A DNA stretch of 29,290 bases. Source: a virus. Position 1 is the first letter of the stretch. The number at the start of each line of letters is the position of its first letter. A model generated the notes under the pieces. It saw nothing but the letters and a program-made list of their open reading frames with translations. It was not told the origin of the DNA and searched no databases. Shown one piece after another: positions 227 to 13,283 of this stretch. Position numbers and translations under genes: made by a program. Location: positions 1 through 29,290 of IMG/VR virus record IMGVR_UViG_3300030117_004405; one strand, given 5' to 3'.

Positions 227-787
227 ATGAACATATTCGTATTAGACATAGACCCCAAAGTGGCGGCACGTATGCACTGTGACAAGCACATCCCCAAGAT
301 GTGTGTAGAAGCGGCACAGATGATGGCATCAGCCCTGCGCCGACACGGTGCTACCGATGAGCAAATGCCACTGACCAAGAAGGGTACACCCTACAAAGGT
401 GGCTACCATCACCATCCCTGCACAGTATGGGCAGGTGACAGCCGAGCCAACTTCAAGTGGTTGGCTCAACACGCCCGAGCATTACTCTTTGAATACTATG
501 TGCGCTTCAGTAAAACATCAGAGATAATGAGCAACAAAACTCATGCTTGTTACGGCCCCATTTACGCTATGTCCGGTATGACAGACATGATTCCCGAAGG
601 TAAACTCACACCATTCGCAATTGCTATCGCTGACCACATGGAATGTAGAAAGTTACCTGACTTCGACAACATGTGCGCAGTAGAAAAGTATCGCGCTTAC
701 TACAACCATGACAAACGATACTTCGCCAAGTGGGAGAAGGGAACACCTGCCCCCGATTGGTGGCAAGGCGTGGAGGTGACGGCGTGA
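227..787 (+). CDS. Conserved phage-type protein of unknown function (186 aa)
   Basis: The N-terminus MNIFVLDIDPKVAARMHCDK, followed by a helix with a Cys and AAQMM, and a middle HHPCTVW segment, resemble a family I recall from many tailed phages and environmental viruses, usually annotated only as hypothetical. The conserved His/Cys/Asp residues (HCDKH near 18-22, HHHPC near 61-65) suggest metal binding or an enzyme, but I cannot name a reaction. The ATG at 227 has GGGAGG eight bases upstream. The C-terminus GVEVTA is encoded by the first copy of the repeated junction module (772-787), which also supplies the Shine-Dalgarno site and GTG start of the next gene. Confidence 0.8.
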   Translation: MNIFVLDIDPKVAARMHCDKHIPKMCVEAAQMMASALRRHGATDEQMPLTKKGTPYKGGYHHHPCTVWAGDSRANFKWLAQHARALLFEYYVRFSKTSEIMSNKTHACYGPIYAMSGMTDMIPEGKLTPFAIAIADHMECRKLPDFDNMCAVEKYRAYYNHDKRYFAKWEKGTPAPDWWQGVEVTA

Positions 788-903
788 TTTACAAATACTC
801 AAGTGACATTTACTACGATTCATCAATCAACATTTTCTTTTTCCTAAACGAACAGGGCGAAGAAGTTGAATGTAATGAACAGGGCGTGGAGGTGACGGCG
901 TGA
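784..903 (+). CDS. Very small hypothetical protein (39 aa)
   Basis: It starts with GTG at 784, overlapping the upstream TGA, eight bases after the start of the GGAGGTGA motif, and stops at TGA 901-903. It encodes an aromatic-rich peptide (VIYKYSSDIYYDSS...) ending in GVEVTA, the same C-terminal hexapeptide as the preceding gene. No homology is recognised. It could be a real micro-protein or a decayed insert trapped between two junction modules; the well-formed initiation region favours translation. Confidence 0.5.
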   Translation: MIYKYSSDIYYDSSINIFFFLNEQGEEVECNEQGVEVTA

Positions 904-1067
904 AGGAATTCAAATATGAAAAAGTGCATCGCCTTTGGGATGAGTTTGTTGAAACATTGTTTGAACTTCATTTGATTTGTGCTGGCACAGAAGAAGATTT
1001 TCCACTGGTATTGAAGGCAACAGTGGAGACACTATTGGATGACGGCTTCACGGAGGTGACGGCGTGA
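900..1067 (+). CDS. Small hypothetical helical protein (55 aa)
   Basis: GTG at 900 overlaps the previous stop (GTGA) and is preceded by the junction Shine-Dalgarno GGAGGTGA. The product has the acidic/hydrophobic spacing of a helical protein (VHRLWDEFVETLFELHL...) and again ends in EVTA at the third junction copy. I do not recognise a family. Translational coupling with both neighbours is likely from the overlapping starts and stops. Confidence 0.55.
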   Translation: MKEFKYEKVHRLWDEFVETLFELHLICAGTEEDFPLVLKATVETLLDDGFTEVTA

Positions 1068-1159
1068 AGAGTTGTAGATGCAAAGATTGTATTGGTAAAG
1101 ATATGGAATATCAAATGTGTCCTAACGGATATGAATGTGGCGTGGAGGTGACGGCGTGA
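1064..1159 (+). CDS. Cys-rich micro-protein (31 aa)
   Basis: This starts at GTG 1064 and stops at TGA 1157-1159, between junction copies three and four. The peptide has five cysteines in 31 residues (SCRCKDC..., MCPNGYEC), which suggests a small metal-binding knuckle. It ends in GVEVTA like the genes at 227 and 784. No family is recognised. The initiation context is as good as that of its neighbours, but the size makes the call tentative. Confidence 0.5.
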   Translation: MKSCRCKDCIGKDMEYQMCPNGYECGVEVTA

Positions 1160-1377
1160 AGGGTGATTTCAACCGAGCATGGTTCTTACACCCACGATGG
1201 AAAGAGGCGAACCAAGCGTGTAAACACGCAACAGGAGGCATGGGCCTTTACGATGCATGGGATAAGAATAGAGGTTGCACAAGCATCGGTACAAGAGGTT
1301 GGTTGACATACGATAAAGTGGCCGAGTCAATTGCCGCCTTGATGTTTGGATATGAAGCGTGGGAGGTGACGGAGTGA
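1156..1377 (+). CDS. Small hypothetical protein (73 aa)
   Basis: The start chosen is GTG 1156, which overlaps the preceding TGA and uses the fourth junction module's GGAGGTGA. An in-frame ATG at 1135 lies within the preceding gene with no Shine-Dalgarno sequence and is less likely. The product (VKGDFNRAWFLHPRWKEA...) is rich in Trp, Gly and basic residues and ends in EVTE. A compact fold is plausible, but no family is recognised. Confidence 0.6.
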   Translation: MKGDFNRAWFLHPRWKEANQACKHATGGMGLYDAWDKNRGCTSIGTRGWLTYDKVAESIAALMFGYEAWEVTE

Positions 1378-6716: not shown

Positions 6717-6868
6717 TGGCTCACATACCGTGGGAATTTGTTCAGGCCGAAGTAGATGAAGCATTAGCAAATCTACCTGAAGGTAAGAAAGTTGACTTAC
6801 AAATCAATTCAGACGATGGGAAAGGGATTACATCGTTTAACATCAAAATTGTAGACAAGGAGGAATGA
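6716..6868 (+). CDS. Small hypothetical protein (50 aa)
   Basis: ATG 6716 overlaps the preceding TGA (TGATG), with GGTGG/GGTGAG just upstream, and the gene stops at TGA 6866-6868. It encodes MAHIPWEFVQAEVDEALANL followed by two short strands, a helix-strand-strand mini-fold. No family is recognised. Its last codons contain AAGGAGGA (6857-6864), the ribosome binding site of the next gene, so the two are probably translationally coupled. Confidence 0.6.
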   Translation: MAHIPWEFVQAEVDEALANLPEGKKVDLQINSDDGKGITSFNIKIVDKEE

Positions 6869-6870
6869 AT

Positions 6871-7860
6871 ATGGCAGGTTTCGGAGCAGCAGCAAAGCAA
6901 GACAAGATGGACAAGCAAGCGGAGAAGGCAGCGCCTTCAAAGCAGGTAGAGGCGGAAGATGTATTCGCATCTCTTGCCAAAGAGCGTAATCAATTGAAGA
7001 GTGTACGACCACGTTCACATCAGTTTATCGCTTTGGCAGGTCATGATGGTACAGGTAAATCTGCACTCGTGCTTGACGCATACAAGAAAGACCCACATCG
7101 TACTGAAAAGGATGAGTTGTGGTCAATGGATTTCGATTCAGGTGTGATGATGCTACACGATGCTATCTATCCTGAAGACAGAACCATTGTCAATTTCGAC
7201 CCTTGGGTGATGCAGGTAGGTGAGCGTACTGCTAACGATTACCCTGCGACTCACAAGCGTGTGCTTGATATTACCAAGTACGCAATTGACATTGCTCAAA
7301 AGCAACTTGACCCTGAATATGACGGACAACGGATTTGGGGTCTGCTTGTTTCAGGTGTAGATTATTGGGACCAAATCTGTGTGAACAACATGAGAATCAC
7401 AGACTTGGGTTTGGCGAAGGATGGAATCGAAGCAGCGGATATTCGTGGTGCAGGTGATGCAAGTCGTGTAGACAAACAATGGGATTGGGCTATGCGAAAG
7501 ACTCGCTTTCACCAACTCACATTCCTATGTCAGAAACTTGTCAAGTTGGGTGTGAGAGTCTATTGGGAAACACACCTAAAGAAGACGAACTATTCATGGG
7601 GTGATGGGGAAAAGAATTCCAAGTGGCGACCCGATTGGGAGAAGTCCACAGGCAATCGCTTGCCGACTATCCTGATGTGTGAACGTGTTGACACATTGGG
7701 CGATGACGGTGAGGTTGCACGAAGTGAGTTCGTCGTATCATTTGAGAAAAGCAAGACAGCACCCGACTTGCTTATGCAACGTCGGACTGTATTGATTACA
7801 AAGGCCGGAGAAAAGGCTGAATGGAGAGGATTACCGGAACTGTACGACGGTTCACTATGA
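6871..7860 (+). CDS. RecA/RadA-superfamily ATPase (Sak4-like recombinase)
   Basis: A single P-loop domain with Walker A GHDGTGKS at residues 57-64, a probable Walker B GLLVSGVDYWD ending near Asp164, and a lysine-rich N-terminal extension. This arrangement fits single-domain RecA-like ATPases of viruses (Sak4/RadA group), which promote single-strand annealing or strand exchange. It lacks the N-terminal helix-hairpin-helix domain of cellular RadA. ATG 6871 is preferred over ATG 6865 because AAGGAGGA is then seven bases upstream. The location between the OB-fold candidate and PCNA supports a replication/recombination role. AAA_24-type phage ATPase is an equivalent name. Confidence 0.75.
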   Translation: MAGFGAAAKQDKMDKQAEKAAPSKQVEAEDVFASLAKERNQLKSVRPRSHQFIALAGHDGTGKSALVLDAYKKDPHRTEKDELWSMDFDSGVMMLHDAIYPEDRTIVNFDPWVMQVGERTANDYPATHKRVLDITKYAIDIAQKQLDPEYDGQRIWGLLVSGVDYWDQICVNNMRITDLGLAKDGIEAADIRGAGDASRVDKQWDWAMRKTRFHQLTFLCQKLVKLGVRVYWETHLKKTNYSWGDGEKNSKWRPDWEKSTGNRLPTILMCERVDTLGDDGEVARSEFVVSFEKSKTAPDLLMQRRTVLITKAGEKAEWRGLPELYDGSL

Positions 7861-11944: not shown

Positions 11945-12267
11945 AACAACACATAGCAGAGTTTCTTGACGAGTATCTTGAAACACTTGATTTGGTTGAC
12001 CTCTTAGATGTGCAAATTCATGTAACAGCATTCTTAGATGATGCGGTTACGGAGTATAAAAAACAATTTTATGTAGGTGATGAAGTGCAATTCAAAGATG
12101 GCGATGGAGTCGTGCATAAAGGTAGTATTCTTAGAAAGAAAAGAAAGAAATTTCAGATAGCAAATGAAAATGGTACGGTGTGGGATGTATACCCGGCATT
12201 ACTATTCAAGAGTACCCAAGAGTATTACCACAATTTAGACTTGTTAATGGAGGATGAATCTGTATGA
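11941..12267 (+). CDS. Hypothetical protein with SH3/KOW-like barrel (108 aa)
   Basis: The N-terminal 40 residues are an acidic amphipathic helix region (MKQHIAEFLDEYLETLDLVD...). From about residue 43 the pattern YVGDEVQFKDGDGVVHKGSI, a basic turn RKKRKKF and later strands resemble an SH3-like or Tudor/KOW barrel that often binds nucleic acid or protein partners. No specific family is recognised. Start and stop both overlap neighbours, so it belongs to the operon. Confidence 0.6.
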   Translation: MKQHIAEFLDEYLETLDLVDLLDVQIHVTAFLDDAVTEYKKQFYVGDEVQFKDGDGVVHKGSILRKKRKKFQIANENGTVWDVYPALLFKSTQEYYHNLDLLMEDESV

Positions 12268-13283
12268 GATACAACCCGAAGGGTCCTGAAGACACACGAC
12301 CTACAATTGAAGAGTACCTTGAAACAACAGGCGACAAGGAAATGTATGATTCATACAAACAAAGTCGTTACGATTGGAACCCTGCCATCCACGATGAAGA
12401 GATTCTACGTATCACAAAATCATCACTCAATACATTTGGTTGGTGCAAGATGCAATATTGGTTACGACACTTTGCTCGCTTAGATGACTTTGGTGGTGAC
12501 GATGCCACACGTGGTTCAAATGTCCACGATGCTGTTGAGTATTTTTGGGAGCATATCGGTAAAGAACTTGATGCTGTTGATATGGCATTGAAATCCAATT
12601 CTACAGAACAAGCGAGGGCTATCATGCATGATGTGATACCCAAGCCACCTACACCATTTGAATTTGGTGAAGAAGAACAAATCAGACAATGGGTAGATTG
12701 GCAGTTCAATCGTTATCAGTATACTCAAGGTAAAGGTTGGAAGCCCATAGGTGTGGAAGCAAACATCCATGCGCGTATGATGATAGACATTGATGGTGAG
12801 TTAGTGCCTATACACACAAGGGGTTACATTGATACCATCTTCCCAAACGATGAGGGTGATGGTTTTGCACTCATGGAATTGAAGACGGGTAAGTACAAGA
12901 AAAGCAAAGTTTCGTCTATGCGAAAAGAAATGCAATTCTATCGTATGATGCTTGAACATAGCGCACACTACGAGTATTTGCCTATTACACATTGGGGGTG
13001 GGAGTTCCCCGGTGGTGGTATGAAAGATGGGATTGGGCCATCTATACATTACGAATCTGTAAACGCAGGGAGGCAAGTTGACGACAGTGTAATGAAATCT
13101 ATTCAAAGATTGGTGAAAGCACATATTGACAATGACTTCCCGTTACCTTCTGACAAAGAATTGATGTTATGGGGTACAAAAAATCAACCCGAGGGACTAA
13201 AATCAAAATGCGATTGGTGTTCCTACGTGGATGTATGCCAACGTTTTACAGGAATCCCATATGAATTGGAGGAAGGAAAATGA
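12264..13283 (+). CDS. Cas4/RecB-type PD-(D/E)XK nuclease with predicted Fe-S cluster
   Basis: A DNA exonuclease of the RecB/Cas4 type, 339 aa. Visible motifs: RGSNVHDAVE with His88; Asp190 in RGYIDTIF; the E-x-K pair in ALMELKTGK (Glu205, Lys207); and the QFY element (Gln224, Tyr226). Cys61 together with Cys316, Cys319 and Cys325 (KCDWCSYVDVC) fits the four-Cys iron-sulfur cluster of Cas4 and AddB nucleases. No cas genes or CRISPR repeats are nearby, so a role in replication, recombination or DNA end processing is more likely than adaptation. Confidence 0.88.
   Translation: MRYNPKGPEDTRPTIEEYLETTGDKEMYDSYKQSRYDWNPAIHDEEILRITKSSLNTFGWCKMQYWLRHFARLDDFGGDDATRGSNVHDAVEYFWEHIGKELDAVDMALKSNSTEQARAIMHDVIPKPPTPFEFGEEEQIRQWVDWQFNRYQYTQGKGWKPIGVEANIHARMMIDIDGELVPIHTRGYIDTIFPNDEGDGFALMELKTGKYKKSKVSSMRKEMQFYRMMLEHSAHYEYLPITHWGWEFPGGGMKDGIGPSIHYESVNAGRQVDDSVMKSIQRLVKAHIDNDFPLPSDKELMLWGTKNQPEGLKSKCDWCSYVDVCQRFTGIPYELEEGK

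Follow-up and report, generated by a model that had tools for sequence, protein, structure and literature searches.

A repeated gene-junction module and the exchange of single-gene cassettes in putative viruses of marine archaea

The module and its array

The window, which is the whole 29,290-base virus record analyzed here, carries a row of overlapping open frames on its + strand at positions 227-787, 784-903, 900-1067, 1064-1159, 1156-1377 and 1374-1607. The first of them, which we call the anchor gene, encodes a 186-aa pyrimidine-dimer-glycosylase-like protein (Pyr_excise, Pfam PF03013, E = 4e-6; PHROG 624, phrog_624, E = 2e-50) ending in EVTA, and it forms the conserved left border of the array. 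At the end of this gene lies the first copy of a 16-nt module, GGAGGTGACGGCGTGA, found exactly at 772-787, 888-903, 1052-1067 and 1144-1159, and a fifth copy at 1362-1377 contains one mismatch (GGAGGTGACGGAGTGA), a C to A change that gives EVTE. All five copies are on the + strand. The first, second and fourth are extended at the 5' side to GCGT, forming a 20-mer at 768-787, 884-903 and 1140-1159; across relatives the extended form was found in 129 of 215 copies. With up to three mismatches allowed, 0.2 matches are expected by chance, and none of 100 dinucleotide-preserving shuffles reached five. The count given in a preliminary description of this DNA, four exact copies and one with a single mismatch, was thus confirmed together with the positions, far beyond chance.

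Each copy is read twice. In the preceding frame, GAG GTG ACG GC[AG] TGA encodes the terminal EVTA or EVTE and the stop codon, and in the second reading the same letters provide the Shine-Dalgarno sequence GGAGGTGA, the spacer CGGC and a GTG start codon that overlaps the stop by 4 nt. GGAGGTGA is fully complementary to the 3' end of archaeal and bacterial 16S rRNA. Module 1, for example, contains the stop codon of the anchor gene, the Shine-Dalgarno sequence and the GTG start of the first cassette. The earlier proposal that the 16-mer ends one gene, supplies a Shine-Dalgarno site and starts the next gene at an overlapping GTG holds frame by frame.

Four genes have a module at each end. Cassette 1 (784-903, 39 aa, family FAM0) is near-identical in five other genomes, where it mostly has other neighbours (87-92% DNA identity). 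Cassette 2 (900-1067, 55 aa) and cassette 4 (1156-1377, 73 aa) had no relative in the IMG/VR search, and cassette 3 (1064-1159, 31 aa) is rich in CxC and CxxC motifs. The last gene of the array (1374-1607, 77 aa, family FAM21) starts at module 5 and leaves the array through an ordinary overlap junction at its right end; its homologue is likewise last in another array genome (G060). All these genes are on the + strand. The enclosed proteins belong to different families, in agreement with the preliminary description, whereas its extent of the array stands for the five modules but not for five enclosed genes, and the repeat is a 20-mer in only three of the five copies.

In the rest of the window, replication genes occupy the + strand and structural genes the - strand, and the gene content includes a family B polymerase, an RFC small subunit, a PD-(D/E)XK nuclease, an ERCC4 nuclease and a chaperonin. 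According to the literature, Magrovirales, which infect Poseidoniales, have oppositely transcribed replication and structural modules with a family B polymerase, a clamp loader, a PD-(D/E)XK nuclease and a chaperonin (PMC12999244, PMC10768690). The window agrees with these accounts in gene content and orientation. The virus is probably Magrovirales-like, with the array in its early, replication half, and the hosts of the array-bearing viruses are probably marine archaea.

Conservation of the module in related viruses

The anchor gene has 144 relatives in IMG/VR, and directly downstream of many of them the same module occurs in series, with up to eight copies per site. Beside anchor homologues its usual form is GCGTGGAGGTGACGGC[A/G]TGA, present in about 75 virus records, and the consensus across relatives is GGAGGTGACGGC[AG]TGA. 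When 94 records were searched whole, 75 had one or more copies at a tolerance of one mismatch. The copies lie on a single strand per virus record and mostly in one cluster, and a reversed-pattern control gave essentially none. In total, 232 module sites and 137 cassettes bounded on both sides were collected. The 20-mer GCGTGGAGGTGACGGCRTGA occurs in 65 viral stretches, many of which hold several copies. In the GTDB collection of 84,980 genomes it gave scattered single matches and one 9.3-kb contig with five copies, from a Maricaulis MAG. That contig (NZMJ01000078.1, hereafter L285) holds a module array and cassettes common to these viruses, and is probably misbinned viral DNA. Since GTDB otherwise gave only isolated 20-mer matches, a cellular origin of the module was rejected.

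The translational features of the module are not typical of the gene junctions in these genomes. Among 715 ordinary overlap junctions of the same genomes, GGAGGTGA occurs in 6 and is followed by a CGGC spacer in only one of those, whereas CGGC occupies the spacer in 151 of all 197 GGAGGTGA-N4-[AG]TGA sites. In addition, the Thr codon of the EVTA tails is ACG in 159 of 178 cases, against 11.5% of Thr codons elsewhere. The Shine-Dalgarno sequence and the overlap are explained by translation; judged from these sequence counts, the spacer and the Thr codon appear to be conserved beyond any translational or protein need. Such DNA-level identity is as expected if recombination copies and re-uses the junctions, or if some factor reads the sequence. 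Plain convergence on a Shine-Dalgarno sequence is disfavoured by the ordinary junctions of the same genomes. The codon bias also bears on the idea that the shared C-terminus is a functional peptide tag, such as a degron or sorting signal, conserved at the protein level. EVTA indeed ends the preceding protein at 172 of 215 junctions, but codons and not residues alone are fixed, and the same cassette is found at other ends without EVTA (...CCKEMKE in L008 versus ...CCKEVTA in L005). We rejected this reading on the codon fixation and regard it as very improbable.

Alternatively, the module may serve chiefly in regulation, with a viral protein or RNA binding it to control how accessory genes are translated and gene turnover being a by-product. 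Such control has been proposed for the Start-Associated Sequences (SAS) of actinobacteriophages. Conservation beyond the need of the Shine-Dalgarno sequence, as in SAS (PMC3203893), is in its favour. However, the module has no conserved flanking element and gave no match in Rfam, and regulation alone leaves the breakpoints at modules described below unexplained, though both functions can hold together. We consider regulation as the main role unlikely.

Other repeated elements were noted in these genomes. A second suspected module, AGAATTAGCGGAGTGA, turned out to belong to a core gene, whose conserved end it forms, with one copy per genome. Directly after this core gene, two cassette families have homologues (87-94% identical) with no module in three genomes (L031:4070, L032:4667, L038:4814); this position, which lies upstream of the anchor, is a second variable site. 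GGAGGAATGAAT followed by [AG]TGA is a recurring 16-mer junction with 21 copies in 15 relative genomes, which may be either a second type of junction or a strong ribosome-binding overlap of the ordinary kind. Upstream of the anchor, tandem diverged paralogues (MIDTDKYEGHT...DAPLLLxEVKRLRE) were found at L012:1959-2930 and at L285:1965-4368, with at least five copies in the latter. They have in common a near-identical 20-bp coding segment, GAAGTCAAGCGGTTGCGTGA, are absent from the window, and possibly represent another recombining gene family.

Gain, loss and exchange of cassettes at modules

After removal of near-duplicate genomes, 197 cassettes from 61 genomes were grouped into 116 families, 44 of which occur in at least two genomes; some singletons are isolated chance matches in unrelated phages. 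In 137 of 141 pairs of same-family occurrences between genomes both neighbours differ, although family pairs, like the alignment ends given below, share genomes and are not independent counts, and several records are fragments. Shared cassettes are more similar than the genomes that carry them, with a median DNA identity of 90% versus 75% for the anchor gene (97 pairs) and of 88% versus 67% for RFC (27 pairs). Relatives with flanks of 91-98% identity hold different cassettes. L005 and L290, for instance, are 91% identical on the left of the array (1,473 nt) and 97.9% on the right (1,500 nt), but contain eight and six cassettes, respectively, with three families in common. In L017, L021 and L025 the site is empty, the anchor gene being joined to RFC through one module, and L038 and L054 have one cassette and one extra module copy at the same site. 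The preliminary description had proposed a plug-in array, to be refuted by relatives that all kept the same genes while their junctions had diverged. The opposite was found: it is the junctions that are conserved and the genes between them that vary, and comparison of relatives shows gain, loss and swapping of genes precisely between modules. L017 and L054 are 97% identical to the right of the array and 68% to the left, as if the array were a crossover point between genome halves.

The breakpoints coincide with the module. For shared cassettes with different neighbours, position-wise identity on both sides is about 0.30 outside, about 1.0 in the module and about 0.85 inside. Because this test uses cassettes that were defined by modules, an unbiased analysis of BLAST alignment ends was added. 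Inside arrays, 79% of 520 alignment ends are at most 6 nt away from a module in both sequences, compared with 3% for random positions. Away from modules, ordinary 4-nt overlap junctions take 9% of alignment ends versus 0.1%, so that gene borders are favoured in general, but far less than modules. In one two-sequence alignment, in which the region of the second sequence was mis-set, identity begins at the module.

These data can be set against random illegitimate recombination followed by selection, in which only well-coupled joins survive and the module has arisen by convergence or is just the junction that binds ribosomes best. The ideal Shine-Dalgarno sequence inside the module and the modest enrichment of alignment ends at ordinary overlaps speak for it. 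On the other hand, the concentration of breaks at modules, the rarity of GGAGGTGA and of the CGGC spacer in ordinary overlaps and the excess of ACG all argue against it, and we think it improbable, to about the same degree as the regulatory reading. An assembly artefact at short repeats has also to be considered, because the sequences all come from metagenomic contigs that contain short direct repeats. It is contradicted by the same arrays in independent assemblies (L008/L009 and L057/L058) and by frames that are open and under purifying selection, and we give it hardly any credence.

Not every cassette copy depends on a module. Among near-identical copies (at least 80% aa identity), 17 of 225 start away from one, which points to capture by other routes as well or to module decay, and more distant homologues are often located in ordinary operons. 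No family occurs twice in one genome, with 2.8 pairs expected (P = 0.07, not significant); this would fit loss of duplicates through the same recombination.

Candidate mechanism, cargo and related systems

We propose that the locus is an integrase-free cassette array in which the translation-coupling junction doubles as the recombination seam. Each cassette is a single open frame between copies of the 16-20 bp module, which provides the last codons and the stop of the upstream gene, a perfect Shine-Dalgarno sequence and an overlapping ATG or GTG start for the downstream gene, so that translation of the two may be coupled. Because every junction has identical DNA, recombination between any two modules would insert, delete or swap whole genes in frame and coupled in translation. 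Exchange would proceed by short-homology recombination, probably by the replication and annealing proteins of the virus rather than by a site-specific recombinase, and the cargo may be accessory genes, perhaps for counter-defence. We assign a probability of roughly 0.78 to this explanation as a whole, including the Magrovirales-like nature of the virus. The earlier claim of homologous recombination is borne out as regards the breakpoints, which comparison places at modules; the mechanism itself we infer from these breakpoints, from the lack of a detected integrase and from the replication and recombination genes carried.

The 21 array genomes searched, several of them fragments, contained no match to tyrosine (PF00589) or serine (PF00239) recombinases. 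Each of these 21 genomes has a gene for a P-loop ATPase, tentatively a Sak4-like annealing protein and a candidate recombination protein (6865-7860 in the window, + strand). Matches to phrog_124 (Sak4) are weak in L021 (E = 3e-4) and L028 (E = 0.003) and missing for the window protein; across the genomes they are short, mostly covering about 20-80 profile positions near the P-loop, and the AlphaFold model (pLDDT 52) is too poor for use. The candidate partner is the PD-(D/E)XK exonuclease at 12264-13283 (+ strand; PF12705, E = 2e-17; phrog_1218 exonuclease, E = 7e-12). In lambda Red, an exonuclease and an annealing protein recombine at short homologies, and by analogy the exonuclease and candidate annealing protein of the window could do the same. 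Counting against our explanation, the evidence is comparative throughout, and 16-20 bp is a short homology for ordinary RecA/RadA recombination.

A dedicated enzyme acting on the module, whether in integron-like or in some other site-specific recombination, would account for the precise junctions, the single orientation, the promoterless cassettes in a row and the empty site with one module copy. Like integrons, these arrays hold cassettes of one gene each, all in the same orientation, which can be swapped at a fixed site and may be absent from it. Integrons, however, have a tyrosine-recombinase integrase beside the array, for which the 21 genomes gave no match, and an attC site of 57 nt or more with inverted repeats per cassette, whereas the homology here is limited to common ends of 16-20 bp with flanks that are not conserved. 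The cassettes here, unlike those of integrons, also carry a ribosome-binding site through the shared junction. Magrovirus families have moreover been described without an integrase (PMC12999244, PMC10768690). We judge a dedicated enzyme to be a still weaker prospect than random joining or regulation.

The module-bounded cassettes have a median length of 52 aa, and 76 of 122 contain a CxxC motif. Their median dN/dS is 0.21, with values below 1 in 37 of 37 families, and this purifying selection indicates that they are real genes. When the small cassettes were searched against Pfam, PHROGs and PADLOC, the results were limited to zinc ribbons, a single PHROG without a name and weak matches, none of them convincing, and an AlphaFold model of one family (pLDDT 45) is too poor for use. 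Three classes of DNA methyltransferase occur as module-started cassettes, some bounded on both sides: an N6/N4 DNA methylase with modules on both sides in L007 (5960-6706) and L314 (212-958), a D12-class adenine methylase in L014 (6003-6782), and C-5 methylases in L291 (2546-4203). They fit an anti-restriction role and are the only hint in favour of the earlier suggestion of anti-defence cargo, which is plausible but unproven.

The closest known system is SAS, described with its upstream partner ESAS in Cluster K mycobacteriophages and with an analogue in Cluster EF Microbacterium phages (PMC3203893, PMC7302621). Both SAS and the module, including its window copies, are short repeats at the ribosome-binding position before start codons, are conserved beyond the need of rRNA pairing (in the module, at the CGGC spacer and the ACG codon), and precede mainly non-structural genes of different families in essentially one orientation. 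In contrast to the SAS consensus, GGGATAGGAGCCC or GGGAAAGGACCCC, the module has another sequence and length; it lies within the last codons of the gene before it, with a stop/start overlap, and forms contiguous arrays at one site. ESAS lies upstream of a subset of SAS, whereas no ESAS-like element accompanies the module (identity about 0.30 immediately upstream). Gene exchange at the module was demonstrated by comparison; SAS is described as an element of unknown function (PMC3203893, PMC7302621). Anti-defence genes of Sulfolobus viruses share early-promoter sequences, and there too archaeal viruses give many unrelated small genes a near-identical expression signal, but as a BRE/TATA promoter before single genes and not as a translational junction within a gene array (PMC11065993).

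A junction of this type was not described in the open literature searched, with a prior description possible in PMC11706807 and PMC5434244, and the magrovirus survey does not mention repeats, cassettes or recombination. The boundary or linker sequences of lambdoid phages are short conserved sequences at gene borders that serve as crossover points, and figure in the debate on whether mosaicism arises by homology or by illegitimate recombination. In contrast to those linkers, one and the same module marks each border in an array of several genes, and this lets any cassette join any other. The array is a clean natural case for the old question of whether phage mosaicism at gene borders arises by short homologies or by random joining and selection. 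It is about an even bet that this lineage uses an integrase-free junction of 16-20 bp, serving at once as stop, ribosome-binding site, start and recombination seam, for rapid, community-wide trading of counter-defence genes in which insertions would be expressed automatically. Frames between two modules are genes under selection, probably accessory ones, and the module can serve as bait for new small viral proteins, possibly counter-defence proteins, from abundant, uncultured viruses of marine archaea.
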